64,000 nt of DNA from Halosolutus gelatinilyticus (GTDB taxonomy: Archaea > Halobacteriota > Halobacteria > Halobacteriales > Natrialbaceae): assembly GCF_023028105.1 (NCBI RefSeq), contig NZ_CP095491.1:2108001-2172000 (forward strand), given 5' to 3'. The notes below the pieces were generated by a model, which worked only from the letters and a program-made list of their open reading frames with translations, ran no database searches and had not been told where the DNA came from. This document shows positions 43,985 to 61,290 of this stretch, piece by piece (position 1 is the stretch's first letter; each line of letters starts with the position of its first letter). The position numbers and the translations under genes were made by a program.

Positions 43985-44090
43985 CGAAGCCCGTTCGAGC
44001 CGGCTATCTGCCGTGTTCTCCGGCTATCGGAGCCACATCGTCGAGTAGTCGGACTCCACGATCGGCTGAGACCGCCACCGACATATGCAA

Positions 44091-44107
44091 ACGTTTATTA
44101 TAAACGT
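44091..44107. promoter_or_regulatory. Palindromic operator overlapping the GntP TATA box
   Basis: ACGTTTAT and its complement ATAAACGT flank a single T. The centre TTTATTATAAA is also the TATA box, about 27 bases before ATG 44127. A bound dimer would block TBP. Confidence 0.6.
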
Positions 44108-44126
44108 GCTTGACTTTCGTTCTGTC

Positions 44127-45452: not shown

Positions 45453-45537
45453 CTTCCTCCAGCGGCTGTCCGCAATCCGGACGAAGAGGCGATATCACTG
45501 CAAGACTGCGGGACAGAGCGGAACGTAAGCGGTGCCC

Positions 45538-47718
45538 TCACGTGATCAGCAGTTCGACCGGATGGCGAGGCTGGCGCTCCAGGAGCGCGTCGATCTGCTC
45601 CAGGCAGGAGGTCCCGCTCGCGACGACCGGCTGTTCGCGAACGCCGTCGGTCTGGAACTGCTCGCGGAGGCGATCGCCCACGTCCATGCTCAGTTCGTAG
45701 TACTCGGACTTGTAGCCGAAGCTCCCCGCCATCCCGCAACACTCGACGTCGGACGTAGCCACGTCGTAACCGCACTCCTCGAGGACGGCGACGGTGTACG
45801 GTTCCAGGCCGAGCGTTCGCTGTTGACAGTGGCTGTGGTAGGCGACCGCGCCGTCCTCGGTCGCGGCGAGCGCCGACGCGTCGGCGCCGTTCTCGAGGAG
45901 CCCGTACACGTACTCCAGTATCTCGTAGCTGTTCTCGGCGAGTTCGGCGAACGCCGCCCCGTCCAGGAGCTTCTCGTACTCGCGTTGGAACATCGCGTAG
46001 TCGCTCGGCTCGATCACGACGATATCGCGGCCGTCCTCGATGTGGGGAGCGAGCGCCTCGGTGACTCGCCCGGCGTGGTCCGTCGCCGTCGCGACCATTC
46101 CCTGGGAGAGCGGCGCCCGGCCGCTGGACGGCACCGGCGGGACGACGACGTCGACGCCGAGTGCCTCGAGCACCCTGACGGCGGCCTTCCCGCGGTCGAC
46201 CTGCACGTGGTTCGTGTAGAGGTCCGGGTAGAGGACGGCCCGCCGCTCGGGATCGGCGACCGTCGACTCGCGATCGGCGAACCAGTCGACGAGCGTCTCG
46301 CGCTCGAAGGCCGGCAGGTCGCGGCGGGGATCGATCTCGAGGAACCGCGCCATGAACTGTCGGGAGACGGTCGTGTCGGCCAGCCAGTTCGACACCGGTG
46401 CCGTCGCGCTGCCGAGCTTCGCCACCGTTTCGAAGTTGCCGAAGAAGCGCTTCTGAAGCGGCGCGCCCTCGTCCTCCTCGTCGGGGCTCAGTCCGTCGAC
46501 GAGCCAGTCGGCGGGCGCATCCTTCTCGCGGTTGATGCGGTCCCGGACGACCGTGTTGATCCAGGGAATGTCGATCCCCACTGGACAGGCGTTCACGCAG
46601 CGCGTACAGCCCGTACAGAGGTCGTTGAATTCTGCGGCGACGTCCAGCCCCTCGATCCCCGCTTCCCAACCGGTCGCGATACCGCCGGAGTAGGTCTCGC
46701 CGCCGAAGGCGTGGCCGCCGACGCTCTGGAAGTTCGCACACGAGTTCGAACAGGCCGAACATCGAATGCAGTACAGCGTCTCCCGAAGGTGGTCGTCCTC
46801 CCGCATCTCCGTGCGGCCGTTGTCGACGAGTACCAGGTGGAACTCGCGATCGCTCTCGAACTCGGAGATGGGAGTCGTGTCGTCCTCGAAGTCGACGACC
46901 GGCGTTTCCACCGGCGGCGTCAACAGCGAGACGTACGAGGTGATGTCCTGACCCGTCCCCGATCGGCCGATGAGTTCGACGAACGATTGGAGGTCCGCGA
47001 CGGTCGGGACGACTTTCTCGACGCCCGCGACGGTGATCTGGGTGTCCGTCGCGGCCACGGACTTGCGGGCGTTGCCCTCGCTGGTGACCAACGCCATCGT
47101 TCCCGTCTCGGCCGCGATGAAGTTCGCGCCGGTCAGTCCGACCTCCGCGTCGACGATCCGCTCGCCGAGCGTCTCGCGGGCGAAGCGGGTCAACTCTTCG
47201 GCGGTCTCCAGCGGCTCGTCGGGATCGAAACGCTCGTTGAACAGCGCCGCGATCGCGTCGCGGGACTTGTGAATGGCCGGCGCGACGATGTGCGACGGCG
47301 CCTCGTCGGCGACCTGCAACACCCACTCGCCGAGGTCGGTCTCGACGACGTCGACGCCGGCTCCCTCGAGCGCCGCGTTGACCTCGAGTTCCTCGCTGGT
47401 CATCGATTTGCTCTTGACGACCCGGTTTGCGTTCCGATCGGCGACGACCGATCGAACGTAGTCGTTGGCGTCGGCGGCGTCGTCGGCGAGGTACACCGTC
47501 CCGCCGTTTTCCTCGACGGCCGTCGTCAACTGCTCGAGCAGCTCCGGGAGCCGTTCGATGGCGTCTTCCTTGATCGCTCGCGCCTCGCGTTTCAATTCCT
47601 CGTAGTCCTCGAGGTCGGCGACCGACGCGTATCGTCCGTCGTTGAACGCCTGCGTATTAGTCGCGACGGCTGCGCCTTCGGTCCGAATCAGTTCCCGGAG
47701 TTCGTCCGCCGTCGCCAT
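45538..47718 (-). CDS. L-lactate oxidation iron-sulfur protein, LutB-LutA fusion
   Basis: This 726-residue protein has an N-terminal LUD domain (residues about 60-300, SKSMTSEELEVNAALE and GLTGANFIAAETGTMALV). It then has two 4Fe-4S motifs (CIRCSACSNSC near 316 and CTGCTRCVNACPVG near 368) and a C-terminal cysteine-rich CCG-type region (YHSHCQQRT, ECCGMAGSFGYKSEYY, GTSCLEQI). This joins in one chain what Bacillus makes as LutB and LutA. It passes electrons from L-lactate or a similar 2-hydroxy acid to the respiratory chain. It follows LutC by two bases. Confidence 0.85.
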   Translation of the reverse strand: MATADELRELIRTEGAAVATNTQAFNDGRYASVADLEDYEELKREARAIKEDAIERLPELLEQLTTAVEENGGTVYLADDAADANDYVRSVVADRNANRVVKSKSMTSEELEVNAALEGAGVDVVETDLGEWVLQVADEAPSHIVAPAIHKSRDAIAALFNERFDPDEPLETAEELTRFARETLGERIVDAEVGLTGANFIAAETGTMALVTSEGNARKSVAATDTQITVAGVEKVVPTVADLQSFVELIGRSGTGQDITSYVSLLTPPVETPVVDFEDDTTPISEFESDREFHLVLVDNGRTEMREDDHLRETLYCIRCSACSNSCANFQSVGGHAFGGETYSGGIATGWEAGIEGLDVAAEFNDLCTGCTRCVNACPVGIDIPWINTVVRDRINREKDAPADWLVDGLSPDEEDEGAPLQKRFFGNFETVAKLGSATAPVSNWLADTTVSRQFMARFLEIDPRRDLPAFERETLVDWFADRESTVADPERRAVLYPDLYTNHVQVDRGKAAVRVLEALGVDVVVPPVPSSGRAPLSQGMVATATDHAGRVTEALAPHIEDGRDIVVIEPSDYAMFQREYEKLLDGAAFAELAENSYEILEYVYGLLENGADASALAATEDGAVAYHSHCQQRTLGLEPYTVAVLEECGYDVATSDVECCGMAGSFGYKSEYYELSMDVGDRLREQFQTDGVREQPVVASGTSCLEQIDALLERQPRHPVELLIT

Positions 47719-47720
47719 CG

Positions 47721-48242
47721 TTACGCGCCCTCCTCCAGCACGAGCACGCGGACGTCTCGCGGCCCGTGCGCGCCTCTGACGAGGGCGCCCATATCCGCGG
47801 TCGCACTCGGACCGGTCGCGATTATCGCGCTCCCGCGGGTCCGTCCGATTTCGTCGTCGAGCGCGTCGACGGCGGTTTTCATCTCGGAGACGATGTCGGA
47901 TTCGCGGACGACCGCCACGTGACGATCGACGAACAGGCTCACCAGTTCGCTGCCCCGGTCAGTCATTCGGAGCACCAGCGAGCCGTACTCGCCGATGCCC
48001 AGTCGGGCTCCCGTCACGCCGGTCGTCGCCTCGCGCAGCGATGCGGGCGTCGGATCGATCTCGACGGTCGTCTGGGCAAGTGAGAGGGACGGATCGTCGA
48101 ACGTATCGGAGAGCGAGACGCCGACCGCGGGTTGTGCGACGAGCTCGTCGATCCGTTCGTCCAGCGACGACGCGTCCGTGCGGGTCACCGGAATACCCAG
48201 GTCGTCGAGCGACGACGCGAAGGTTGAAATCGTGGCTGCCAT
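47721..48242 (-). CDS. lutC: LutC/LUD-domain protein
   Basis: This 173-residue LUD-domain protein (GARLGIGEYGSLVLRMTDRGSELVSLFVDRHVAVV) has the usual LutC length. It is the first gene of the lactate oxidation pair and ends two bases before LutAB starts. It starts at ATG 48242, with the divergent sugar ABC operon beginning 206 bases away. LutC is the small partner needed for lactate utilisation complexes, with no Fe-S motif of its own. Confidence 0.85.
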   Translation of the reverse strand: MAATISTFASSLDDLGIPVTRTDASSLDERIDELVAQPAVGVSLSDTFDDPSLSLAQTTVEIDPTPASLREATTGVTGARLGIGEYGSLVLRMTDRGSELVSLFVDRHVAVVRESDIVSEMKTAVDALDDEIGRTRGSAIIATGPSATADMGALVRGAHGPRDVRVLVLEEGA

Positions 48243-48363
48243 CGGTACGCAAACGCTGGTTCTCCACCGTCATTTAGCTTTGGTTAGTACGGGCCGCGGT
48301 CGCGACGATGCGGATCGGATTCTCGATTTTCGATTCCCTTCGGCTACTCGTACTGCGATTCAG

Positions 48364-48384
48364 TTCGCACATCCATAGTGTGAA
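48364..48384. promoter_or_regulatory. Inverted repeat TTCRCAC-N7-GTGYGAA
   Basis: The arms TTCGCAC and GTGTGAA pair with one mismatch around ATCCATA. The site lies between divergent LutC and the ABC binding protein, 64 bases before ATG 48448 and just upstream of its TATA-like TTTATCATATAG (48410-48421). Confidence 0.45.
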
Positions 48385-48447
48385 ATCATCGTGTGTGATA
48401 CCGGCACATTTATCATATAGGACACTACATGCTTGTAACAGCGCACC

Positions 48448-49845
48448 ATGACAGACAACAGTACGGCCTCCGGGCTGAACAGGCGCAACTATCTCGCCGG
48501 ACTCGGCATGGCGATGGCCGCTGGTCTCGCCGGCTGTACAGGGGGTGGCAACGGGTCGAACGGTCTCGACTTCTGGCTATTCGGCGGCACGCCGGCCGAG
48601 CGGGAGTACATCAGCAGCCACTACAGCAACTACGACGGGGGTATCAACTACCAGCACCAGGAGTGGGGGCAGAAGTACCAGATCATCGCCTCGGCTGCGG
48701 CGAACGACAACCTCCCGGACGTCATGGCCGGTCAGGCCATCGAGATTCCCGACTACGTCGGGGCCGATGCCATCGAACCGCTGGACGGCGACGGGTTCGA
48801 AGATCGGCTCACCGAGATCAACGAAATCTTCGTCGACGCCAACATCGACGCGCTTCGCTACTCCGACCTCGGCGACTACGACGGCGAGCGGCAGTACGCG
48901 CTTCCCGGCGGGTACGCCGATATGGGGCCGTTTGTCGACATTCGAACGGACTACATGGAGCAAACCAGCTTCGACGAGCCCCCGCGAACGTGGTCGGAAC
49001 TCGTCCAATTGGCCGAGGAGATGCAGGAACTCGACGAGATCGATGCGGCCGTGACGACCTCCGGAAACGATCAGGGCCTGACGGCGGGATACTTTATCGG
49101 CTTCGTGTACGCAAACGGCGGTCGATACTACGATCCCGACTCGCTCGAGGCGACCATCGACGAGCAGGGGTTCGTCGACGCCGTCAAACTCTACGAGGAA
49201 CTCGCGAGCAACGACTTGTTCCCGGGTTCTATCGCCGAGAACGACCACATCAAAGCGGGTCGGCGGCTGATCAATGGCAGTTCGGGGATCTTCATTACGT
49301 ACTCGCACGCGAACGCAGTCATGGAGACGATCGACGCCCCGGACGAGTGGTACGACGGGGAAGGCCACACCGTTACGCGCGCGCCGCTGCCCGAGGAGCC
49401 GTCCGGGAGCTTCGAGCCGCGCGATCTCCTGATCCAGAACGCGCAGGCGTTCATGCTGGCACGCGGGACCGACGGCGACGACGAGTATAAATCCGCGCTC
49501 GAGTACCTCGAGTGGTGGAACAGCGAGGACCAGCTCGCGCCGTGGACCGGCTCCCCCGACACCGACGTCGGCATTCGCGGTCGGGTGCCGACGCTCCAGA
49601 GCGCGTTCGACGATCCGCCGGAACTCATGGAGACGGAGTTCGGCGATCTGGTAACGCTGTACGAGGAGGACAACCTGTTCACCAACACCGCACGGTTCCC
49701 GTCGTTCCCCGGGCTCGCATCGGTGCAGAGTATCATCAACCGAAACGTGCTCCAGCCGGTGATGCTCGGCGAAGCGACCGCCGAAGAGGCCTGTAGCGAC
49801 GCAAACGAACAGGTCCAGGGGGTCATCGACGACGAACTCGCCTGA
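48448..49845 (+). CDS. Sugar ABC transporter solute-binding lipoprotein
   Basis: This 465-residue family-1 solute-binding protein has a Tat lipoprotein signal (NRRNYLAGLGMAMAAGLAGC) and then a Gly/Asn linker. The mature domain (GLDFWLFGGTPAEREYISSHY, later TYSHANAVMETIDAP) is of the oligosaccharide type. It is the first gene of a complete transporter (48448-53026). A TATA-like TTTATCATATAG lies about 27-38 bases before the ATG. The substrate is unknown; context suggests rhamnose or ulvan oligosaccharides. Confidence 0.9.
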   Translation: MTDNSTASGLNRRNYLAGLGMAMAAGLAGCTGGGNGSNGLDFWLFGGTPAEREYISSHYSNYDGGINYQHQEWGQKYQIIASAAANDNLPDVMAGQAIEIPDYVGADAIEPLDGDGFEDRLTEINEIFVDANIDALRYSDLGDYDGERQYALPGGYADMGPFVDIRTDYMEQTSFDEPPRTWSELVQLAEEMQELDEIDAAVTTSGNDQGLTAGYFIGFVYANGGRYYDPDSLEATIDEQGFVDAVKLYEELASNDLFPGSIAENDHIKAGRRLINGSSGIFITYSHANAVMETIDAPDEWYDGEGHTVTRAPLPEEPSGSFEPRDLLIQNAQAFMLARGTDGDDEYKSALEYLEWWNSEDQLAPWTGSPDTDVGIRGRVPTLQSAFDDPPELMETEFGDLVTLYEEDNLFTNTARFPSFPGLASVQSIINRNVLQPVMLGEATAEEACSDANEQVQGVIDDELA

Positions 49846-49907
49846 GCCGGGATGGTGGAACGAGTGACCAGTACGACGCTACACCGAATGACCACAGTGA
49901 CCCTCGC

Positions 49908-50834
49908 ATGAGTTACGCAGACCAGACCCGATCGGCGTACGGAAACATGATCAATCGCGTTCCGGAGTCGGTCAGGGTGTACCTTCCGATCGTCCCGGTG
50001 ATGGTGCTCGTCGGGGTGTTCATCCTCTACCCGATCACACAGGCGATTTACTCGAGCTTTTTCAGCAAGAGTCTCCTCTCACCGGACGATGCGGAGTTCG
50101 TCGGAGCGGCCAACTATCTGGAGATCTGGACGAACCCGGATATCCATCAGGTCCTCTGGAACACGTTCATCTGGGTGACTGTCGGCAGTATCGCCGCGAT
50201 CATCTTCGGGTTCGTTCTCGGGTGGCTCCTCTACGAGAAGCTGCCGTACACGAGCGTCGCCAGCGCCATCGTGTTGATCCCGTGGGTGCTCCCCCGGGTC
50301 GTCGGGGCGTCGATCTGGCAGTTCATGTTCGGCGGCGACCAAGGCATCATCAACGAACTCCTCGTCCAGCTCGGCATCATCGACGAATATCTCGTGATGC
50401 TCGGCTCGGGAGAACTCTCGCTGTGGCCGCCGATCGTCGGGATGATCTGGCGGCTCGCGCCGCTTTTTGCCCTGTTGACGCTCACGTCGTTGCAGGGAAT
50501 CGACGAGCACCTGTACGAGGCCGCACGGATGGACGGTGCAACGCCGTGGGAGCAGTTTCGGCACATCACGCTTCCGCTGATGAAGTACAACCTCGCCATC
50601 GGGTTCCTGCTGATGTTGATCTACAACATTCGGAACTTCTCGATGGTGTGGGTGATGACGGAAGGCGGCCCGGGCGTCTCCAGCAGTACGCTTCCGGTGA
50701 TGATCTACCGGACGGCGTTCGTCGACTTCAACGTCGGTCTCGCATCGGCGCTGTCGGTACTTCTGTTCGTCGTCCTGCTGGTGTTCTCGTACTACTACAT
50801 CAAGGTCTACGACAAACTCCAGGGTGAATTCTAA
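49908..50834 (+). CDS. Sugar ABC transporter permease (MalF-like)
   Basis: This 308-residue permease has six spans and the EAA loop DEHLYEAARMDGATPWEQF near residue 208. Its stop overlaps the start of the next permease (ATGA-type, TAATG at 50832-50836), so the two are coupled. It lies 62 bases after the binding protein gene. Confidence 0.9.
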   Translation: MSYADQTRSAYGNMINRVPESVRVYLPIVPVMVLVGVFILYPITQAIYSSFFSKSLLSPDDAEFVGAANYLEIWTNPDIHQVLWNTFIWVTVGSIAAIIFGFVLGWLLYEKLPYTSVASAIVLIPWVLPRVVGASIWQFMFGGDQGIINELLVQLGIIDEYLVMLGSGELSLWPPIVGMIWRLAPLFALLTLTSLQGIDEHLYEAARMDGATPWEQFRHITLPLMKYNLAIGFLLMLIYNIRNFSMVWVMTEGGPGVSSSTLPVMIYRTAFVDFNVGLASALSVLLFVVLLVFSYYYIKVYDKLQGEF

Positions 50835-51799
50835 TGGCAACGGACAACACCGATCCGACGGCAGAGTTCCGGAAAAACCAGTCGTGGCTCTTCGATACGA
50901 CCGCGGGGGCCTACCTCCGGAAGACGGTTGTCGGTCTGGTCTCGATCATCGCCTTCCTGTACATCCTCTTTCCGCTGTACTGGATGGCCGTCACGGCGTT
51001 CAAGACGACCAGAGAGATCCAGCAGACGCCGCCGACGCTGTTCCCCGAGTCCCCTTCGTTCGAGGGGTTCCGTCAGGTCATCGAATCGTCGCTGCAGACG
51101 GGCGGCTACGCCGGCGTCGTCGAGAGCATTTTCGGGATCACCGTCTCGTCCGCGATCAACCTCGACGTCTTGGGGATCGTCTTCAACAGCCTGAAAGTCT
51201 CGATCGGCGCGGGGCTGATCGCCGTCGTTCTGGGAACGATCGCGTCCTACGTCCTCTCTCGACGCGACTTCCGCGGGAAGAACGCGTTGATGAGCATCCT
51301 CCTGGCGTCGCTGATGTTCCCCGGGACCGCGATCATGGTCCCCGAGTGGGAACTGATCAATACCCTCAATCTCTATAACACCCACACCTCGCTGATCTTC
51401 ATCTACGGGGCGATGACGGCGCCGTTCGTCGTCTGGCTCATGAAGGGATTCTTCGACGAGTTCCCGGATTCGATCATCGAGGCCTCTCGCATCGACCAGT
51501 GTTCGTCCGTCGAGACGTTCTGGTACGTCATCGTCCCTATGGCGCGTAACTCCCTCATCGCGTCGTTCATCTTCGCCTTCCTGCTGGCGTGGAACGAACT
51601 GGTGTTCGCGCTGACGCTGCTAGATAACCAGAACTACACCGTTCCGCCGGGCCTGCTCACCTTCGTGCAGGGGTTCAACACGCAGTGGAACGTGGTCGCC
51701 GCGGCGTCGATCATCGTCTCTATCCCGGTATTGCTCGGACTGGCCTACATCCAGCGGTACTTCGTGCAGGGGCTGACCGGCGGCGCGATCAAAGGGTAA
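50834..51799 (+). CDS. Sugar ABC transporter permease (MalG-like)
   Basis: This 321-residue permease has an EAA loop (DSIIEASRIDQCSSVETFWY near residue 222) in which the usual AA is AS. An insertion of about 40 residues (IESSLQTGGYAGVVESIFG region) lies in the first periplasmic loop, compared with the permease at 31260. It pairs with the preceding permease. Confidence 0.88.
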   Translation: MATDNTDPTAEFRKNQSWLFDTTAGAYLRKTVVGLVSIIAFLYILFPLYWMAVTAFKTTREIQQTPPTLFPESPSFEGFRQVIESSLQTGGYAGVVESIFGITVSSAINLDVLGIVFNSLKVSIGAGLIAVVLGTIASYVLSRRDFRGKNALMSILLASLMFPGTAIMVPEWELINTLNLYNTHTSLIFIYGAMTAPFVVWLMKGFFDEFPDSIIEASRIDQCSSVETFWYVIVPMARNSLIASFIFAFLLAWNELVFALTLLDNQNYTVPPGLLTFVQGFNTQWNVVAAASIIVSIPVLLGLAYIQRYFVQGLTGGAIKG

Positions 51800-51859
51800 T
51801 CCGCCCGTTCTTCCGTTCAGACGCTACCTTTAATATCCGTTAGACGGTACCGATTTGCA

Positions 51860-53026
51860 ATGACACGCCTCGAGCTAGACGGTGTCACGAAAGTATTCGG
51901 CGATCCCGAGAAAGACGGCGTTGTCGCCGTCGACGACTTACACATCGAGGTTCCCGATGGAGACTTTCTCGTTTTACTGGGCCCCAGCGGCTGTGGAAAG
52001 ACGACCACGCTCCGCATGATCGGTGGTCTCGAGAATCCGACCGAAGGTGACGTCAAGTTCGACGGAATCGTCGTCAACGACGTCAAAGCGCGAAACCGGG
52101 ACGTCGCGATGGTGTTTCAGGACTTCGCGTTGTACCCGCACATGACGGTTCGGCAGAATCTCGGTTTCGGTCTCAAACGGGAGGACAACGGCATGAGCGA
52201 CGACGAAATCGAACAGCGGGTGACCGACGTCGCCGAAATGCTGGAGATCGATCAGTTGCTGAACAACAAACCCGGTCAACTCTCGGGGGGACAACAACAG
52301 CGCGTCGCACTCGGCCGGGCGATAATCCGCGAACCGCGCCTGTTCCTGTTCGACGAGCCGCTGGCCAACCTCGATGCACAGCTGCGAAAGACGATGCGAA
52401 CCGAGATCGACGAGCTCCAGTCGGAGGTGGGTATCACGTCCGCCTACGTGACGCACAACCAGGAGGAGGCGATGACCATCGCCGATCGGATCGCGATCCT
52501 CAACCACGGGGAACTGCAGCAACTCGGATCGCCGGACGCGGTGTTCAACGAACCGACGAACCTCTTCGTCGCGCAGTTCGTCGGCAGTCCGACTATGAAC
52601 GTCTTCACCGCGGCCGTCGACGAGCGCGAGGATGCCTACCGGATCGACATGGGCACCGCGACGTTCGATATCTCCAAGCGACTCGTCAACGCCGTCATTG
52701 AGACGGACGAGGTGCTCGTCGGATTCCGCCCGCAAGATCTCTACCGGAGTGGCAATCGGCGAATCGACGGACCGGAGTTCGACTCGGAGATCCGCGTCAT
52801 CGAACCGGTCGGCACCGAAGCGGTCGTTCACGGCGATTCGGACGCCGGCGACGTCACCGCGAAGATCGGCGGCTTCCACGAACTGTCGTCGGGCGACGGA
52901 CTCTCGCTGACGATCGCGCCCGAGCACATCTACCTGTTCGACGCGAACACCGAAGAACTCCTCAAGGGGCGACTCATCTCCGAGCGGGCCGACGACCAGA
53001 CGTCGGCCGACGGCGTCGAAGTCTGA
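51860..53026 (+). CDS. Sugar ABC transporter ATP-binding protein (MalK/UgpC type)
   Basis: This 388-residue ATPase has Walker A GPSGCGKTTT, Q-loop VFQDFALYPH, signature LSGGQQQR, Walker B LFLFDEPLANLD and the H-loop YVTHNQEEAM, in which the common Asp-Gln is Asn-Gln. It carries a TOBE-like C-terminal domain (VGFRPQDLYRSG). It completes the transporter begun at 48448. It has a TATA-like TACCTTTAATATC box (51826-51838) of its own, about 22-34 bases before the ATG. Confidence 0.92.
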   Translation: MTRLELDGVTKVFGDPEKDGVVAVDDLHIEVPDGDFLVLLGPSGCGKTTTLRMIGGLENPTEGDVKFDGIVVNDVKARNRDVAMVFQDFALYPHMTVRQNLGFGLKREDNGMSDDEIEQRVTDVAEMLEIDQLLNNKPGQLSGGQQQRVALGRAIIREPRLFLFDEPLANLDAQLRKTMRTEIDELQSEVGITSAYVTHNQEEAMTIADRIAILNHGELQQLGSPDAVFNEPTNLFVAQFVGSPTMNVFTAAVDEREDAYRIDMGTATFDISKRLVNAVIETDEVLVGFRPQDLYRSGNRRIDGPEFDSEIRVIEPVGTEAVVHGDSDAGDVTAKIGGFHELSSGDGLSLTIAPEHIYLFDANTEELLKGRLISERADDQTSADGVEV

Positions 53027-53147
53027 TTCGAGGTTCACCGGCTGATTGGGCGCCGATACGACCGAACGCAGAACCCCATCTGATCCGGAGAGCGCGAGCT
53101 AAAATATACATATGATGATTTTTGATCAAACAAGCACCGTTTACCCA

Positions 53148-53157
53148 AAATTATTAA
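53148..53157 (+). promoter_or_regulatory. TATA-like box of the zinc alcohol dehydrogenase gene
   Basis: AAATTATTAA, preceded by ACCCA as a possible BRE, is centred 26-27 bases before ATG 53180. This decides for 53180 over the in-frame ATG 53213 as a leaderless start. A TTTGATCAAA palindrome lies at 53121-53130. Confidence 0.5.
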
Positions 53158-53179
53158 GCCGAGTACCGACATGCTCTGA

Positions 53180-54244
53180 ATGAGTCACGGAGGCTCAGTT
53201 CCAATCGTAATTATGAAAGCAATTGTTCAGACGGGCCCCCGCTCCGTCGAGACACAGGAACGAGAGCGACCCGAACCGAAGTCGAACGAAGTGCTCGTCA
53301 AGGTCCGTACGGCCGGTCTGTGTGGGAGCGATGCCCACGCGTACAAGTACGACGGCGGCTACGAGTGGATTCCGATTCCCCGGATCATGGGACACGAGTA
53401 CGCCGGCGAGGTCGTCGCGATCGGCGACGACGTCGAGACGTTCTCCGAGGGCGACAAGATCGTCGAGGAGCCGATCCACGACTGTGGACACTGTTTCCAG
53501 TGCAAGAACGGCCAATCCAACGTCTGCCAGAACTTCTCGATCACCGGCATGCATCGCGACGGCGCCTACGCGGAGTACGTCACCGTCGAACCGCACCACC
53601 TCCACGCCGTCCCGGAGAACGTTCCGTTTCGACACGCCGCGATCACCGAACCGACGAGCATCGCCACCCGCGCCGTCCTCGACCAATCGGTAACGTCACC
53701 GGGCGACAACGTCCTCGTCGAGGGGCCGGGCCCGATCGGCGTTCTCGTCGCGGCCGTCGCGGACTCGCTGGGGGCGAACGTCGTCGTCTCCGGTCTCGAG
53801 CGAGACGCGCGCTATCGGCTCCCGTTGCTCGAGGAACTCGGCATCGACACGATCAACGTTCAGAGCGAAGACCTCGAGGCGCGCACCGAATCCGTCACCG
53901 GCGGGACCGGGTTCGACGTCGTGTTCGACTCGACCGGGCACCACACCGGCATCGGGACCGCCGTCGAGTACGTCCGCAAGGGCGGCCAGGTGGTCGTCGT
54001 CGGAATTCCGAACGACACCAGCGAGGTCACGCTCACGTCGGTCGTCCGCGGGGAGATCGAGCTCAACACCTCCTACGGGTCGACGTGGACCAACTTCGAG
54101 CAGGCGCTCCGGCTCATGGAGCGCGGCGAGATCGCCGTCGATCGGATCCTCGATACGTCGTTCAGTGCGAATGAGCCGGCGTCCGCGTTCGAGGCGTTTC
54201 TCGACTCCGAGACCTGTAAACCGGTGTTCCAGTTCGCGGAGTGA
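53180..54244 (+). CDS. Zinc-dependent alcohol/polyol dehydrogenase (MDR family)
   Basis: This 354-residue medium-chain dehydrogenase of the sorbitol/threonine dehydrogenase type has the catalytic zinc in AGLCGSDAH and MGHEYAGEV, and the four-Cys structural zinc in CGHCFQCKNGQSNVC. The Rossmann motif is VEGPGPIGVLVAAVADS. It starts at ATG 53180 by its promoter; homologues usually start at MKAIVQTG (53213). It could oxidise L-rhamnose, a deoxy-keto acid such as L-2-keto-3-deoxyrhamnonate, or a polyol. It follows the ABC transporter by 153 bases on the same strand. Confidence 0.87.
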   Translation: MSHGGSVPIVIMKAIVQTGPRSVETQERERPEPKSNEVLVKVRTAGLCGSDAHAYKYDGGYEWIPIPRIMGHEYAGEVVAIGDDVETFSEGDKIVEEPIHDCGHCFQCKNGQSNVCQNFSITGMHRDGAYAEYVTVEPHHLHAVPENVPFRHAAITEPTSIATRAVLDQSVTSPGDNVLVEGPGPIGVLVAAVADSLGANVVVSGLERDARYRLPLLEELGIDTINVQSEDLEARTESVTGGTGFDVVFDSTGHHTGIGTAVEYVRKGGQVVVVGIPNDTSEVTLTSVVRGEIELNTSYGSTWTNFEQALRLMERGEIAVDRILDTSFSANEPASAFEAFLDSETCKPVFQFAE

Positions 54245-54446
54245 ATCCGCCGAGGATTGGACCGATCGTCGCCGAGAGGTGTGGCGGATCTCGGACGGTG
54301 TCGATAGCGATCGCCCCGGCCGTACGTGACGATCGATTTGAGACTAATGTCTGTTTATGAGCCAATGCGTGTTCGCGCAATTCCGATACATCGGTGGGTG
54401 CTGTGAGTGGCAGCGGCGTAGGGCTATGTCCGGCGGTTGCTGCCGA

Positions 54447-54845
54447 TTAGACGTCGTTTCGAACGCCCAGTTCGACCGTCACGGCGGTGACGCGAGCGTT
54501 GGCCGCCTGCAGCGTCGCCGTGCCGCCGTTGAAGTCCGCGGAGATCAGTTGCCAGCCCGTCGTTCGGATCCCGGTGCCGGAGTCGATCGTCGCTGCGTCG
54601 GTGGGCTCGGTCCGCCGTTCCGACGGATCCGACAGCGCGAGGCGAACGGCGCCGGCGTTCGCATCGTCGATCGGACCGAGACGCGCTGTCACCCGTCCGT
54701 AGAGAGGCGTCGCGGCCGTCGCCCGTCGGATCGGAAGCGTCGTCGGCGTGTCGGTGAACTCGTCGGCGTCGCGCACGACCGGAGCCTCTTCCTGAAGGCC
54801 GGTCGTGTCCACCGTGACCGCGTGAGCGACGGGATTGTTCGTCAT
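54447..54845 (-). CDS. Small beta-sandwich-like protein coupled to the BNR-4 gene
   Basis: This 132-residue protein has an ATG that overlaps the stop of the upstream BNR-4 gene (ATGA, 54842-54845), so it is translationally coupled. Its middle, LPIRRATAATPLYGRVTARL, parallels LALTETTVPATPAYARATVAL in the last domain of the BNR-4 protein. Its end, TAVTVELGVRNDV, parallels the end of that protein. It looks like a separate copy of that C-terminal domain. No signal peptide is visible, so export would need the BNR-4 partner. Confidence 0.6.
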   Translation of the reverse strand: MTNNPVAHAVTVDTTGLQEEAPVVRDADEFTDTPTTLPIRRATAATPLYGRVTARLGPIDDANAGAVRLALSDPSERRTEPTDAATIDSGTGIRTTGWQLISADFNGGTATLQAANARVTAVTVELGVRNDV

Positions 54846-56704
54846 CGCGACTCGCCTCCATGCGGTGCGACCGCATCGTCGCCGCCCGTCGGATCGTGAT
54901 ACCCGATCTCGAGGACCGTTTCGGAGACGATGGCTCCCTCGTCGCCATCCGGCGTGGCGCGTAGCTGGACGGTGACGAATCCCGCGCGGAACGCCTGCGG
55001 GACTTTCGTCCAGTGGGTGGTCCCATCGCCGACGATCTCCACCGGGTCGCCGTACGTGGTGCCGTGCGCTCCCTGTATCTTCACCCTAGCCTCGACGGTG
55101 GCACCGCTCGACTCGTCCAGTGCGACGGTCGCCCGTGCGTACGCCGGCGTCGCCGGGACGGTCGTCTCCGTGAGCGCGAGCGCCGTGTTCGTCTCCTCGA
55201 ACGACGTGCTCGCGACCGAAATCGGCGGACCGACGGCCTCGGTGGACGCGTACACCGCCAGTTCGTCCGGCTCCTCCGAGAGGTCGATTGTCCGCTGCGA
55301 TCGGTTCAGGCGCTCGAGGTCGACGTCGGTGATCCCCACCAGCGAGTGGGCGCTCCACGGAACGTCGCCGACGTTCTGCTGGTGATCGACGTAGCTGAGA
55401 ACGCGGTCCGCTCGCCACCGTGCGGGGTCGATGTGAACGTCGCTCCAGGTCATGTTCCGCTTGTAGAGGACCGACGTCCGCCACTCGCCGTCGATCTTTT
55501 CGACGAGCAGCGGCCAGCTTCCGTGCTCGAAGTCTCGAGTGAGGATGTGAACGTCGCCGTCTTCGTCGACGACGATTCCCATCCGACCGATCGGCGACGC
55601 GACCACGCCGGGACCGCCGAGGTCGATGTCCGTCGTTCGGTTCGTCGCCGATTCGATCACCCACTCGCCGTCGTCGAGGTACGCGTGGAACACCTGAGTG
55701 TGGCCGTTCTCGTCGTCGCGGTAGTAGGTGACGTGTGGGGCGCCGGTTCGCGGATCGTAACTCGCCCAGCCCTGATTGATGAAGTTGCTGCCGGGTTCGA
55801 TCGGGTCGACGATCTCCGCCTCCCCGAACGTGATGGGGAGCGTGTACGGTGTCCCGTCGCTGCGCTCCCAGGTTTTGCCACCGTCGGCGCTTCGCGCGTA
55901 CGAGAGATCGACGTTGGTCTGGACGTTCCAGGTCTCACGCCAGTTGAAGAAGTAGTGGAGCATCCCGTCTTCGGACTGGACGAGGTTCCACATGTACGAG
56001 TTGTGTTCTCCCTCGCCGTCGATGAGCGGATGCTGGAGCGGCTCCCAAGCCTCTGTGTCTGGGTCCCAGCGGTTTAGCATCCAGTTGCCGGCGCCGGACA
56101 TTCCCTCGCGGTATCCCGCCAGTAGCGTCCCGTCGATTAGCCGCGTGAACTCGAGATAGGTGACGCTCGACTCGTTCTGTCCGGTCATTCCGACGCGCTC
56201 CTCACCGAACGATCGTACGTCCTCGGGATTCGTGCTCTGACGCCACCGTATCTCAGAGTCACGCGTGTTGTAATTGAGGAACACGTGTCCGTCGGGACCG
56301 ACCCCGATGCCCGGCGTCCAGTGGCCGTCTCGAACGTCGATCTCGACGTCGAGATCGGTTTGCACCCACTCGCCGTCCGGAAGGTCGCGGGCGGCGACCA
56401 CGAGGCTCCCCTCCTGGGTCCAGTAAGCGTAGTACTGGCGGTCGTTGTACGTCGTCAGCCGGGGCTGGAACGGCGGCGTATCGGTCTGCGCATTGCCCAG
56501 ACCGTTCTCGGCGAGGTCGTAGCGCTCGAGGGCGTCGGGGCGGCTGCGGTCACGACCACCGGCGGCATTCCGTCCCGCCGTGGCGTTTCCGAACAGGCTC
56601 GCCACGCCGAATACACTGCTCGTCGCGAGAACCATCCGCCGTCCGATCGAGCCCGATACCTCCGCGTTCGACTCATTATCGTGTCGGTTGGTGTCTATTG
56701 CCAT
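54842..56704 (-). CDS. Tat-exported BNR-4 repeat protein, candidate ulvan-type polysaccharide lyase
   Basis: This 620-residue protein has a twin-Arg signal (IGRRMVLATSSVFGVASLFG, about residues 20-39). It is followed by a beta-propeller of the BNR-4 type: YYAYWTQEGSLVVAARDL, GHWTPGIGVGPDGHVFLNYN, SADGGKTWERSDG and NFINQGWASYDPRTG. The C-terminal 120 residues form a separate beta-sandwich-like domain. This propeller family includes ulvan lyases of PL24/PL25; conserved EHNSYMWN, WSDVHID and several Arg and Tyr residues could serve as catalytic residues. ATG 56704 is chosen because it begins the signal peptide. It is divergent from the rhamnonate dehydratase-like gene. Sialidase-like hydrolase activity is an alternative. 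Confidence 0.72.
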   Translation of the reverse strand: MAIDTNRHDNESNAEVSGSIGRRMVLATSSVFGVASLFGNATAGRNAAGGRDRSRPDALERYDLAENGLGNAQTDTPPFQPRLTTYNDRQYYAYWTQEGSLVVAARDLPDGEWVQTDLDVEIDVRDGHWTPGIGVGPDGHVFLNYNTRDSEIRWRQSTNPEDVRSFGEERVGMTGQNESSVTYLEFTRLIDGTLLAGYREGMSGAGNWMLNRWDPDTEAWEPLQHPLIDGEGEHNSYMWNLVQSEDGMLHYFFNWRETWNVQTNVDLSYARSADGGKTWERSDGTPYTLPITFGEAEIVDPIEPGSNFINQGWASYDPRTGAPHVTYYRDDENGHTQVFHAYLDDGEWVIESATNRTTDIDLGGPGVVASPIGRMGIVVDEDGDVHILTRDFEHGSWPLLVEKIDGEWRTSVLYKRNMTWSDVHIDPARWRADRVLSYVDHQQNVGDVPWSAHSLVGITDVDLERLNRSQRTIDLSEEPDELAVYASTEAVGPPISVASTSFEETNTALALTETTVPATPAYARATVALDESSGATVEARVKIQGAHGTTYGDPVEIVGDGTTHWTKVPQAFRAGFVTVQLRATPDGDEGAIVSETVLEIGYHDPTGGDDAVAPHGGESR

Positions 56705-57022
56705 TGTTGATTCGATGGAACAGGCGCCGTTCGAGAGCAGAGTTACGGAGCGCCGCGCGCCGCTGTCGAAACGCCGTCTCGACGGTTCGACGAGCGTACG
56801 CAGCGCATCCCGCAGACTACTAGACCTGTATCCAGACCGAACTTTCAATAAGGAACGTAATAACTCTTAGGCCGACAGTCGATCGATATTGATACACCGT
56901 CTCCAGCACTTATTCCGCCGGTGGTATCGACCGCGACGCGATTCGCCCGCGGCGACGCTTCGATCAGTGAAAAAGATTTTATCGTTGCCGAGAGGAGTCA
57001 GCGTGTACACGGACGAAATACG
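56705..57022. other. Divergent intergenic region, BNR-4 protein and dehydratase
   Basis: Plus-strand A+T-rich AAAAAGATTTTATC (56970-56983) can serve the dehydratase with a short leader. The A+T-rich stretch near 56845-56868 may serve the BNR-4 gene. I see no strong palindrome and no further gene. Confidence 0.4.
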
Positions 57023-58234
57023 ATGGAGATCACAAACATATCTGCGACGAAAGTGAGTACCGAATCCTGGGGCGAGTTCGTCGAGTTCCCGCTCGTCACC
57101 GTCATGAGCAAGTACGACGAGTACAACAACGCAGACGGCGACAACCCGCAGGCCCGGCGGAAGTGGATGGGACCGGTCGGCGACGTCGTCGTTGAGGTCG
57201 AGACCGACGCGGGGATCACCGGCGTCGGCCACGGCAACTGGGCGACCGGCGCGATCGCTACGATCGTCGACGAGACGCTGTCGAAACTCGTCGTCGGCGA
57301 GGATCCCCGCGAGCGCGAGAAGCTCTGGGACATGATGTACCGCGCGACGATCCCGTTCGGCCGGAAAGGCGCCGCGATCGAGGCGATCAGCGCCGTCGAC
57401 CTGGCGCTGTGGGACATCGCGGGCAAGGAGGCCGACAAACCGGTCTACGAACTGCTCGGCGGGCCCGTAGACGACGAGATCCCCTGTTACGCGAGCAACC
57501 TCCACCCGGTCGATCACGACACGCTAGCCGAGGAAGCCATCGACTACGCCGAGAAGGGCTTCGACGCGATGAAACTCCGCTTCCGGTACGGGCCGGAGGC
57601 CGGCCGCAAGGGGATGGAAGAAAACGAGAGGATCGTCCGGACGGTCCGCGACGCGGTCGGCGACGAACTCGAAATCGCCGGCGACGCCTACATGGGCTGG
57701 AGCGTCAAGTACGCCAAGAGGATGGTCGAGCGTCTGGAGCCCTACGATATGGCGTGGGTCGAGGAGCCGGTCATCCCCGACGACATCGACGGCTACGCAG
57801 AAGTCCGCGAGGCGGCGCCGATGCCGATCTCCGGCGGCGAACACGAGTTCACCCGCTGGGGCCACAAGGAACTGCTCGAACGGGAGGCCGTCGACATCCT
57901 GCAGCCTGACGTCCACCGCTGTGGCGGCCTGACCGAACTCCTGAAGATCGACGCGATGGCCAGCGCCCACGACGTTCCGGTGATCCCGCACACTGGAACG
58001 AACCCGCACCTACACTTCATCGCGGCGTCGACGAACTCGCCGATGGCCGAGTACTTCCCGATCCCCGAGTGGTACAGGGAGCGCCAGGCCGAGCAGGACA
58101 AGGACTCGACGTACGCGGACGCCATCTACCAGAACCCGCCGAACGCCGAGAACGGCACACTCCAGCTGCCCGAGGGCGTGGGCCTGAGTGCCGAACTCAA
58201 CCAGGATGCCCTGGATCATTTCGCCGTCGAATAA
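57023..58234 (+). CDS. L-rhamnonate dehydratase-like enolase-superfamily enzyme
   Basis: This 403-residue enolase-superfamily protein has an N-terminal capping domain with TVMSKYDEYNNADG, like the MSKY segment of E. coli rhamnonate dehydratase. A (beta/alpha)7beta barrel follows, with AGDAYMGWSV and WVEEPVIPDD (metal ligands), SGGEHEFTRWG, ILQPDVHRCGGLTELLKI and the late His in VIPHTGTNPHLHF. The C-terminal GVGLSAELNQD also matches. It should dehydrate L-rhamnonate (or a close acid sugar such as L-mannonate) to the 2-keto-3-deoxy acid. The next gene starts two bases after its stop. Confidence 0.83.
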   Translation: MEITNISATKVSTESWGEFVEFPLVTVMSKYDEYNNADGDNPQARRKWMGPVGDVVVEVETDAGITGVGHGNWATGAIATIVDETLSKLVVGEDPREREKLWDMMYRATIPFGRKGAAIEAISAVDLALWDIAGKEADKPVYELLGGPVDDEIPCYASNLHPVDHDTLAEEAIDYAEKGFDAMKLRFRYGPEAGRKGMEENERIVRTVRDAVGDELEIAGDAYMGWSVKYAKRMVERLEPYDMAWVEEPVIPDDIDGYAEVREAAPMPISGGEHEFTRWGHKELLEREAVDILQPDVHRCGGLTELLKIDAMASAHDVPVIPHTGTNPHLHFIAASTNSPMAEYFPIPEWYRERQAEQDKDSTYADAIYQNPPNAENGTLQLPEGVGLSAELNQDALDHFAVE

Positions 58235-58236
58235 CC

Positions 58237-59268
58237 ATGCCGGAGATTAGCTTCGAGTATAACATCCCCGTCTTCGCGGGTGCTCCCGATCCGGGCGACG
58301 ACGAGCCGGTGCACCGGGATACGCCCGCGTACGAGGCGCTGGACTGGGAGACGACCCGAGCGGGGATCGAGAAGGCCGAGGAACTCGGCTTCGACGCCGT
58401 CTGGGCTCCCGATCACCTCATGCTCGGTCGCGACTACGCCGAGTACGAGTGTTGGACGCTGTTGTCGGCGATCGCCGGCTTCACGGACGATATCAACGTC
58501 GGTTCGCTCGTCCTCTGTAACGACTATCGCAACCCCGCACTCGTCGCGAAGATGGCGGCGACGCTGGACGTGATCTCGGAGGGCCGGCTCGAGCTCGGAC
58601 TCGGTGCGGGGTGGCACGAACCCGAGTACGACGCCTACGGCTGGGAGTACCGCGACGGGTTCGAGCGGCTGATGCGCCTGGACGAGTCGATCCGACTGAT
58701 GAAGCGGATGTGGGACGCCGACAGCGACGGTGCGAGCTTCGACGGCGACCACTATCAGATCGAAGACGCGTACTGCGCGCCCCAGCCGGTGCAGGATCCC
58801 CACCCGCCCATCCTCGTCGGCGGTCAGGGAGAGGAGGTGACGCTCAAGCTGGTCGCAAACCACGCGGACGTGTGGAACACGGACGTCTTCAACGGCGACG
58901 TCGAGACGCTGACCCACAAGATCGGCGTCATCGAGGAGCACTGCGAAACCGTCGGTCGGGATCCCGACGAGATCGAGTACTCCTGGGATGGCCACGTCAT
59001 CTGCACGCGCGACGAGGAGCAGTTCGATCGACTGGTCGACCTGATGACGCCCATCCAGTTCGAGGAGGAGTACCAGGATCAGGCGCCGATCGAAACCGAG
59101 GCGGACGCTCGCGAGTACTTCATCATGGGGACGCCCGAGGAGTGTGCCGAGGCGATCGAACGGCGGATCGACGCCGGCGTCACGAAGTTCCAGTGCTGGT
59201 TCGTCGACTTCCCGGATACGAGCGGCATGGAGCTGTTCGCCGACGAGGTTATCCCGGAGTTCTCGTAG
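58237..59268 (+). CDS. LLM-class (luciferase-like) F420/FMN oxidoreductase
   Basis: This 343-residue luciferase-like TIM barrel has FDAVWAPDHLMLG, GRLELGLGAGWHEPEYDAYGW and PHPPILVGGQGEEVTLKL. Its ATG lies two bases past the dehydratase stop, so it is almost certainly translated with it and serves the same pathway. An oxidation step of the sugar acid pathway (sugar, or 2-keto-3-deoxy acid) is possible. No such role is established for this family, so this is inference from coupling. Confidence 0.8.
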   Translation: MPEISFEYNIPVFAGAPDPGDDEPVHRDTPAYEALDWETTRAGIEKAEELGFDAVWAPDHLMLGRDYAEYECWTLLSAIAGFTDDINVGSLVLCNDYRNPALVAKMAATLDVISEGRLELGLGAGWHEPEYDAYGWEYRDGFERLMRLDESIRLMKRMWDADSDGASFDGDHYQIEDAYCAPQPVQDPHPPILVGGQGEEVTLKLVANHADVWNTDVFNGDVETLTHKIGVIEEHCETVGRDPDEIEYSWDGHVICTRDEEQFDRLVDLMTPIQFEEEYQDQAPIETEADAREYFIMGTPEECAEAIERRIDAGVTKFQCWFVDFPDTSGMELFADEVIPEFS

Positions 59269-59631
59269 CGGTTCGCGGCCCGGGCTTCGCTCGGTCTCCC
59301 GCTCGGCAAAATAGTAGTGAAATCATTCAACTAGGGGCGAAAAGTGTCGGCCATATCATGAGTCGATATTTATCCGTGTTTGTGAACGGTTCGCCTGCTC
59401 CGGTGTCAACGCCGGATACCGATGCGTTCGTTTTCGGCCGGTTCGGAGAGCGACGTGTCGGACAGCACGACGAACCCATACGTAACACCGACGGCGATAC
59501 GACGGCAGACGAATCGAACGCGATCGAAGAACGATCGGACGGATTACTCGATTGGCGACGAACACCGCTACCAATGGATCGCATCCGGCACTACCGGAAC
59601 GTTTTTCTCGCGGCGTGCGGACGTGTCTCAC
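59269..59631. other. Intergenic region before the sixth IclR
   Basis: I see no supported gene. A TTTTTCTCG box about 59603-59611 sits 20-30 bases before ATG 59632 and fits a leaderless IclR transcript. There is no good palindrome of the three recurrent classes here. Confidence 0.4.
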
Positions 59632-60390
59632 ATGTCGAGTACGGTTCCGGTCAAGGCGACGAAAATTTCCTTAGAGATCGTCGAGGTGCTCCGCCAACTC
59701 GACGGGGCGGGCGTTTCCGAAGTCTCGGACAGGGTCGGCAGACCGACGAGTACCGTCCACGACCACCTCCGAACGCTCGAGCAGGAGGAGTATCTCGTCA
59801 AGGAGGGCGATAAGTACTACATCAGCACGCGATTTCTCCAGCTCGGCGACCAGGCCCGGTCTCGGAAGAAGGTCTTCGAGATCGCGCGCCCGGAGGTTAA
59901 CAACCTAGCCGAACGGACCGGCGAACACGCAAACCTCATGATCGAAGAGCACGGGCTCGGCGTATTTCTGTACAAGGCTCGCGGCCCCGACGCCGTCCAA
60001 CTCGACACCCACGCCGGGATGCGCGTTCCGCTCCAGACGACGGCGCTCGGCAAGACGATCATGGCCTTTCGATCGCGGGCGGAAGTCGAGGCAATCCTCG
60101 ATCGACACGGCCTTCCGGCGGTAACGGAGAAGACGATCTCGGACCGGAAGGAACTGTTCGACGCTCTCGATCAGGTTCGCGGGCGCGGATACGCGTACGA
60201 CGACGAAGAACGGGTGAAGGGGATGCGATGCGTCGCAGCGCCGATCACCGACGACGACGGCCGCGCGATCGCGGCCGTGAGCGTCTCCGGCCCGAAGAGT
60301 CGAATGCAGGACGATCGCTTTACTAACGGGATTCCGGAGCGTATCCTGCGGTGTGCGAACGTCATCGAGGTGAATCTCACCTACTCCTGA
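59632..60390 (+). CDS. IclR-family transcriptional regulator (sixth)
   Basis: This 252-residue protein has a winged helix (VGRPTSTVHDHLRTLEQEEYLV, about residues 33-54) and an effector domain (LQTTALGKTIMAFRS, VSVSGPKSRM, ending NVIEVNLTYS). ATG 59632 is leaderless. It sits between the dehydratase/LLM pair and the FAH-family hydrolase and is the natural regulator of this acid-sugar pathway, in the manner of RhcR of Haloferax volcanii. The decayed IclR at 61446 is its closest relative in the window. Confidence 0.9.
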   Translation: MSSTVPVKATKISLEIVEVLRQLDGAGVSEVSDRVGRPTSTVHDHLRTLEQEEYLVKEGDKYYISTRFLQLGDQARSRKKVFEIARPEVNNLAERTGEHANLMIEEHGLGVFLYKARGPDAVQLDTHAGMRVPLQTTALGKTIMAFRSRAEVEAILDRHGLPAVTEKTISDRKELFDALDQVRGRGYAYDDEERVKGMRCVAAPITDDDGRAIAAVSVSGPKSRMQDDRFTNGIPERILRCANVIEVNLTYS

Positions 60391-60441
60391 CCGTTCCGTC
60401 AAACAGAATAGTTAGGTAGGTGGAACCGATAGTCGGTACCG

Positions 60442-61290
60442 ATGCAATTCGTTCGATATACCACCGGCGGGAGTCCCCAGTGGGGAGTCCGCCGCGACGA
60501 CGAGATCGTTCCGTTAGCCGGTCTTCGAGAGGAACTATCGTACCGGCAGCTGACCGATGCCGGATTCCTGCGGGTCGTCGAAGACGCCGTCGACGCCGCG
60601 GCGGATCGGGCACGCCCCGTCGCCGAGGCGAAACTGCTCGCCCCCGTCCCTCGGCCGGGGAAGATCGTTTGCGTCGGCCTCAACTATCACGATCACGCCG
60701 AGGAACAGGACGAAGACGTGCCCGAGCGTCCGCTCCTGTTCGGGAAAGCCGGCACGGCGGTCACGAATCCCGGCGATCCCATCGTCCACCCGCCGGAACT
60801 GGAGGAGGTCGACTACGAGGTCGAACTCGGCGTCGTCATCGGCCGAACGGCCAAAGACGTGTCAGCGGCGAACGCGCGCGATTACGTTGCCGGATACACG
60901 GCGATCAACGACGTCAGCGGTCGCGACGCCCAGTTCGAGGACGAACAGTTCTTCCGCGGCAAGAGCTACGACACCTTCGCGCCGATGGGACCGACGCTCG
61001 TTCCCGACGATCGGCTCGCCCCCTCGCAACTCGACGTCGCCTGCCGCGTCAACGGCGAAACGAAACAGTCCTCGAACACGGCGGAGTTCATCTTCGGCGC
61101 CGAGGAACTCGTCGAGTACATCAGCGGGATCACGACCCTGCGTCCGGGCGACGTCATTTCGACCGGCACGCCCGGCGGCGTCGGTATCTTCCGCGAGCCG
61201 CCGGAACTGCTCGAGCCCGGCGATACGGTCGAGGTCGAAATCGAGGGGATCGGCGTGCTATCCAACCAGATCGTAGCGAAACGGGAGTAA
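60442..61290 (+). CDS. FAH-family hydrolase, possible 2,4-diketo-3-deoxy-L-rhamnonate hydrolase
   Basis: This 282-residue fumarylacetoacetase-family protein has KIVCVGLNYHDHAEEQ, the metal site EEVDYEVELGVVIGRTAKDV (Glu, Glu) with Asp in AINDVSGRDAQ, and STGTPGGVGIF. The family cleaves C-C bonds of diketo acids and includes the last enzyme of the L-rhamnose diketo-hydrolase pathway, which yields pyruvate and L-lactate. The gene lies 51 bases after the sixth IclR and close to the rhamnonate dehydratase-like gene. Acylpyruvate hydrolase and 2-hydroxyhepta-2,4-diene-dioate isomerase are alternatives. Confidence 0.82.
   Translation: MQFVRYTTGGSPQWGVRRDDEIVPLAGLREELSYRQLTDAGFLRVVEDAVDAAADRARPVAEAKLLAPVPRPGKIVCVGLNYHDHAEEQDEDVPERPLLFGKAGTAVTNPGDPIVHPPELEEVDYEVELGVVIGRTAKDVSAANARDYVAGYTAINDVSGRDAQFEDEQFFRGKSYDTFAPMGPTLVPDDRLAPSQLDVACRVNGETKQSSNTAEFIFGAEELVEYISGITTLRPGDVISTGTPGGVGIFREPPELLEPGDTVEVEIEGIGVLSNQIVAKRE

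Follow-up and report, generated by a model that had tools for sequence, protein, structure and literature searches.

A free-standing homologue of the last domain of a BNR_4 propeller protein, encoded at an overlapping start codon in Halosolutus gelatinilyticus

The companion gene, its parent and their neighbours

The window analysed here is a stretch of 64,000 nucleotides from Halosolutus gelatinilyticus (contig NZ_CP095491.1, positions 2,108,001 to 2,172,000), and coordinates are those of the window unless another locus is named. Within it, the gene for a 620-residue propeller protein (the parent) ends on the start of a short open reading frame (the companion), and the features of the pair are the following:

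54447–54845, minus strand: the companion, 132 residues, a free-standing second jelly-roll domain (D2, as predicted) without a signal peptide
54842–56704, minus strand: the parent, 620 residues, a BNR_4 propeller protein of the GH145/PL42 neighbourhood, probably Tat-exported
54842–54845, minus strand: ATGA, in which the companion start (ATG) and the parent stop (TGA) overlap by 4 nt
54855–54859, minus strand: GGAGG, a Shine-Dalgarno-like motif 9 nt upstream of the companion ATG, in the final codons of the parent
54881–55261, minus strand: D1, the C-terminal accessory domain of the parent and homologue of the companion, residues 482–608
55643–56440, minus strand: the BNR_4 propeller core of the parent, residues 89–354
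56573–56704, minus strand: a putative Tat signal region of the parent, with RRMVL at residues 22–26 (a motif match only)

The initial annotation had placed the companion start over the parent stop, and the two codons indeed share four nucleotides, ATGA. It had also described the companion as lacking an export signal, and this held: the ATG at 54845 is the first ATG, GTG or TTG of the companion's open frame, so that no longer, signal-bearing form can be drawn within the window, and by eye the N-terminus, MTNNPVAHAVTVDTTGLQEE, contains neither RR nor a hydrophobic stretch.

The organization of this junction is conserved. At all five loci at which companion and parent are separate genes the companion starts inside the parent, with an overlap of 4 nt in the window, in Natrialba, in Halocatena salina and in the archaeon YIM A00010, and of 8 nt in genome G109, whose frame relation is unlike that of the other four; the ATG and a Shine-Dalgarno match of 5–7 nt are kept at each of the five. 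An overlap or very short stop-to-start distance, as is asked of termination–reinitiation, is therefore found at 5/5 split loci. For Haloferax volcanii, a study reports that reinitiation depends strongly on a short distance, that −4 is the commonest overlap (354 gene pairs) and −8 occurs in 62, that the −8 overlap reinitiates less well than shorter ones, and that the products of 45.2% of the pairs at −8 to +10 nt form heteromeric complexes, as against 5.6% for distant pairs (PMC10666635). The companion and parent loci share the −4 and −8 nt overlaps of the termination–reinitiation pairs described there (PMC10666635); unlike those pairs, the two products here are domain homologues of each other, only one of them has a Tat-like signal, and their coupling is predicted from the genes. 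The overlap and the conserved ATG and Shine-Dalgarno match speak for termination–reinitiation over conserved frameshifting and strongly suggest that companion and parent are synthesized in step, so that the translational coupling proposed earlier is supported at the level of sequence.

The genes around the pair (44085–61290), among them one for an IclR regulator, form a set that fits uptake and a diketo-hydrolase-type breakdown of L-rhamnose to pyruvate/lactate, a route known from Haloferax. They include:

48448–53026, plus strand: a sugar-type ABC transporter (solute-binding protein, permeases, ATPase)
56921–58234, plus strand: an enolase-superfamily dehydratase, best NCBIfam match L-rhamnonate dehydratase (263.6 bits, cut-off 393)
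60442–61290, plus strand: an FAA hydrolase, best NCBIfam match 2,4-didehydro-3-deoxy-L-rhamnonate hydrolase (208.4, cut-off 500)

A LUD protein near the pair finds L-lactate dehydrogenase LdhH as its best NCBIfam match (444.4, cut-off 800), and an alcohol dehydrogenase gene also lies beside the pair. With the three pathway-specific best matches all below their cut-offs, the neighbours are probable L-rhamnose catabolism genes that together would fit the diketo-hydrolase route.

Homology, distribution and duplication of the two domains

The resemblance of the 132-residue product to the final domain of the parent had first been noticed by eye. BLASTP of the single companion and parent pair (E 0.007, 26% identity) is too weak to decide the matter. 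In BLOSUM62 alignments of 15 companion and C-terminal domain pairs (three companions, five parents), Z scores ran from 3.1 to 14.3; of 1000 shuffles per pair, none scored as high for 13 of the 15 pairs, and the other two pairs were reached by 1 and by 11 shuffles. Comparison of the three companions with the five C-terminal domains by hhalign gave a probability of 97.1 and an E value of 5.6e-11 from profiles that were shallow (Neff 1.3 and 2.0). The similarity is thus above background in both the profile comparison and the shuffle tests, and the resemblance of ATPLYGRVTARL to ATPAYARATVAL is real, being part of an alignment that covers most of both domains. Consistent with this, a companion-only profile, searched against 125 family genomes, recovered the three companions, followed by D1 of four of the five parent-bearing genomes (G026, E 4.5e-6; G087, 2.0e-5; G000, 7.8e-5; G109, 0.0034), missing D1 of G066. 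Five further genomes matched at E 7.5e-4 to 0.009, four of them with a stop inside the match. We discarded as noise the match in G062, which ranks above the weakest true domain (D1 of G109) and falls in the N-terminal signal/linker part of a 312-residue lipoprotein-like ORF, and, from another comparison, a match in G052 (35% identity), which has two stops inside. Taken together, the sequence comparisons confirm that the companion is homologous to D1. Searches of Pfam, NCBIfam and the PDB sequences with the companion returned no family (PDB matches, at E 0.22 and above, were taken as chance), and the companion of H. salina, WP_247995248.1, is annotated 'hypothetical protein'.

At E up to 1e-60, parents occur in five of the 125 family genomes, namely the window's, G109, Natrialba asiatica (G087), Halovivax sp. 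KZCA124 (G066) and Natronoglomus mannanivorans (G026), the last three names being inferred. A combined D1 and D2 profile, for which the best 10 candidates per genome were scored across 391 genomes of the class, gave at least 11 matches in 6 genomes, all at close parents, and added two genomes from outside the window's family, G302 and G402, the latter being H. salina with the locus on plasmid NZ_CP096021.1. Within G402's family the count is 2 of 146 genomes (G402 and G436, Halobacteriales archaeon YIM A00010), and within G302's it is 1 of 10. A companion lies beside or is fused to the parent in six of these eight close parents: five have it as a separate gene (window, G109, G087, G402, G436) and G302 is the single fused case. 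In the parents of G026 and G066, D1 is present and no companion was found, which leaves companions in 3 of the 125 family genomes. The count of parents leaves out distant BNR_4 relatives of about 30% identity (G020, G025, a second protein of G026, and bacterial or other plasmid records). A plasmid search with the companion matched H. salina alone. A contig scan with one parent as query returned no locus, and one with the parent alignment returned five, including L043 of Halocatena marina, where positions 4001–4465 match parent residues 5–155 only and perhaps represent a fragment or another relative; a ninth close parent there is possible. The companions of H. salina (L020 1067–1465) and YIM A00010 (L040 5818–6216) carry two cysteines in the same stretch, ADCNGGTARLCVSN, and these are absent from the other companions.

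A search for fused and unfused arrangements, suggested in the initial annotation, thus found five split loci and the fused G302. In G302 a single ORF of 761 residues comprises an RR signal, the propeller, D1, a short linker and a full D2. The linker lacks ATGA and is unlike the five split junctions, so a lone sequencing indel fails to explain the fusion. In a tree of the domains the companions, together with the D2 of G302 (six rows), form one clade apart from D1 with support 100/99, and the D1 of G302 groups with the D1 rows (eight rows); in this tree the two D1-only rows, relative to the companions, are flagged for possible long-branch effects. Because the two domains of G302 fall on either side of this division, the duplication predates these lineages, and the free companion and the fused domain are the same thing. 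The fusion supports the companion domain being part of the enzyme. These data support the companion being an old duplicate of D1, in line with the duplication that the initial annotation had listed among its possibilities. A tree of the parents (G020 and G025 as outgroup, the second G026 relative left out) has G302 and the split genomes in an open fork and places neither fusion nor split as ancestral. The D1 of G302 ends in PHGE, resembling PHGG, the tail within which three of the split genes have their ribosome-binding motif; this likeness hints at a split ancestor and proves nothing. Nei–Gojobori dN/dS among the five companions is 0.22–0.31 in all 10 pairs, with silent sites near saturation in the six between-family comparisons, and shows purifying selection on the companion sequence.

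We predicted the structures of both domains. The D1 model was built from five D1 rows with companions excluded (pLDDT 83.0, pTM 0.78), and the companion model from eight rows (pLDDT 79.9, pTM 0.73), five of them D1, so that the companion fold is not independent. Strand order corresponds between the models and the two predicted folds agree, so that neither result by which the initial annotation would have been refuted, differing folds or similarity no higher than background, came about. By VIA-align, the lectin PLTL of Photorhabdus laumondii (9ib7) matches D2 with Z 11.1 (rmsd 2.6, 115 residues aligned) and D1 with Z 11.4 (rmsd 3.0, 115 aligned), and the N-terminal domain of BC2L-C (2wq4) gives Z 10.3 for D2 and 11.1 for D1; chlamydial pgp3, exosporium and C1q/TNF proteins follow, the C-domain of pgp3 just 1.0–1.4 Z units below the top match. 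Foldseek placed TNF, C1q and exosporium proteins first for the companion (best E 2.4e-4) and lectins first for D1 (best E 4.9e-4). D1 and D2 are accordingly predicted by the models to be jelly rolls of the TNF/C1q type, with TNF-like lectins closest. PLTL and BC2L-C, the best matches and similar in length, fit the two models over 112–118 residues with Z 10.1–11.4 and rmsd 2.5–3.4 Å. However, they share only 7–11% identity with D1 and D2 in the structural alignments, neither appeared in a phmmer search with a single companion at E up to 10, and D1 and D2, known here as single-chain models, form part of an enzyme or are made alongside one. The fold that the models share with lectins shows no function. 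PLTL is described as a TNF-like trimer with a sugar pocket between two adjacent protomers (PMC12914763).

The parent as a probable rhamnose-releasing enzyme

The parent matches BNR_4 (PF15892) with E 4e-64 and 217.1 bits (gathering cut-off 27.3). By profile its propeller is closest to the GH145 α-L-rhamnosidase BT3686 (5muk, E 1.1e-70, profile positions 50–444). The matches to solved GH145 chains, which have 431–432 residues and stop before D1, end at parent residues 441–443, with D1 lying beyond, and we know of no companion to BT3686. In contrast to BT3686, the parent of the window has Tyr86, just upstream of the propeller core, at the place of the catalytic His48; across the eight parents this place holds Tyr in five, His in two (H. 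salina and Halovivax) and Asp in one. The parent scores 247.6 bits against the NCBIfam model AlphRhmnaseBT3686, below its cut-off of 700.

Similarity to the PL42 enzyme FoRham1 is lower (7esk, profile E 2.5e-24), and the matched stretch again stops before D1. We compared twelve FoRham1 positions with the parent, of which Tyr26 and Arg331 failed to align. Eight of nine site positions (H85, Y150, R166, S170, Y202, R220, N275 and Q276) carry the same residue in the parent (H128, Y183, R199, S203, Y237, R256, N310 and Q311), and the assisting His105 is replaced by Arg148. The PL42 base-acid residues His85 and Tyr150 and the neutralizer Arg166, corresponding to H128, Y183 and R199, are invariant in a seven-parent alignment. 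According to the FoRham1 study, Tyr34 of that enzyme, equivalent here to Tyr86, stands at the GH145 His48 place, the site residues are largely kept in GH145 too, and both families cut L-Rha-α-1,4-GlcA (PMC8377490). The kept residues by themselves therefore fail to separate GH145 from PL42. We dropped assignment of the parent to GH145 since His48 is replaced by Tyr86, and to PL42 since His105 is replaced by Arg148. From its sequence, the parent is probably a secreted rhamnose-releasing enzyme.

Other glycosidase genes accompany some of the relatives. A GH78-type α-L-rhamnosidase (Pfam) directly follows the fused parent of G302 (L033 9509–11578), and a GH42-type gene follows the parent of G026. 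The plasmid locus of H. salina has a GH88 gene (L050 920–2128), a GH2 gene and an ABC transporter; GH88 would suit the unsaturated-glucuronate product of a lyase.

Export and assembly of the companion

An RR-x-hydrophobic motif occurs in the first 60 residues of all six parents that have D2, free or fused, and in neither of the two without it:

L004 1414–3237: parent of Natronoglomus (name inferred), RR motif and companion absent, possibly cytosolic
L010 1195–3102: parent of Halovivax (name inferred), RR motif and companion absent, possibly cytosolic

The start codons of these two are uncertain, and by eye the three forward frames of the 500 nt upstream contain no obvious Tat signal. The comparison sets six sequences against two, several of the eight closely related, by a simple motif match, and the association of signal and companion is weak. 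D1 persists without D2 in the homologues that show no signal, and so has no need of it there. On reading, the N-termini of the companions lack RR, as the pattern of a Tat hitch-hiker asks.

Those bacterial Tat heterodimers that are known to leave on one signal peptide are cofactor enzymes. Our literature search found no paper on Tat hitch-hiking in haloarchaea, and no title or abstract start that describes the pair of companion and parent. Tat substrates exported as heterodimers with one signal peptide have been described (PMC10924467). As in these heterodimers, one partner here, the parent, has RR and the other does not; unlike in them, the complex of companion and parent and its export are predictions.

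Two of the possibilities raised in the initial annotation, that the companion is a binding module or that it hitch-hikes out of the cell as a partner, fit the sequence evidence. We consider it reasonably probable that the companion arises by termination–reinitiation as a detached second accessory domain of a secreted enzyme that releases rhamnose, and that it is bound to the parent and probably exported with it by Tat. D1 and D2 would then be the two accessory jelly-roll domains of an enzyme that frees terminal L-rhamnose from glycans containing glucuronate, and in most lineages found D2 is encoded as a separate polypeptide. On reaching the parent stop in ATGA, a ribosome would immediately re-initiate at the ATG that overlaps it, with help from the ribosome-binding motif just before the end of the parent gene, so that D2 would be made next to newly synthesized D1. 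In the cytoplasm D2 may bind to D1 or to the remainder of the enzyme; the two would then leave through Tat by means of the signal on the parent, and outside the cell D2 may act as a binding or oligomerizing module. We infer the enzyme activity, the contact between D1 and D2, the co-export and the sugar binding from these comparisons.

Since the nearest folds are trimers with sugar pockets between protomers, the most specific form of this proposal is a mixed, TNF-like head of D1 and D2. That copies of both domains assemble co-translationally in the cytoplasm into such a head, with pockets between unlike protomers, and are exported by one signal is a tentative suggestion, and we regard it as possible and somewhat doubtful.

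Alternatively, the companion might remain in the cell and be absent from the mature enzyme, its dedicated role being to help D1 fold, or to proof-read it, ahead of Tat export. Its lack of a signal and the overlap, which suggests coupled synthesis, would suit such a role, as would the requirement of Tat for folded cargo. However, the enzyme of G302 contains this domain covalently, within its own chain, and would carry it along on export; we judge this explanation rather unlikely. We think it quite unlikely that the companion is an independent intracellular protein, binding for instance sugar or degradation products, which merely shares a transcript with the parent: the missing signal and the two cysteines of the Halocatena-type companions agree with this, but the companion adjoins or is fused with this parent in every genome in which it was found, and it was not found where the parent lacks the RR motif.

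If ribosomes shifted frame in a programmed way at the overlap, or read through the stop, the split genes would give D1 and D2 as one product that leaves the cell together, as the fusion in G302 might suggest. The overlap is 4 nt in four split loci but 8 nt in G109, whose differing frame relation means that no single shift is conserved and led us to drop programmed frameshifting; what is conserved instead is a start codon and a ribosome-binding motif, and the explanation is very improbable. That the companion is a chance or decaying duplicate without function, as its rarity (3 of 125 family genomes) could imply, is scarcely credible given dN/dS of 0.22–0.31 and the retention of companion and overlap in five genomes of four genera by genus labels.

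For the detached accessory domain that we favour, five natural split genes and one natural fusion offer a comparison for gene overlap serving complex assembly at the archaeal ribosome, and the same set offers one for archaeal Tat carrying partners without a signal. The analysis also brings to notice a domain without a Pfam or NCBIfam match and gives a likely function to a haloarchaeal rhamnose-scavenging locus. If the mixed head of D1 and D2 is true, the companion would be an archaeal carbohydrate-binding subunit that hitch-hikes, and the fused G302 its natural control.
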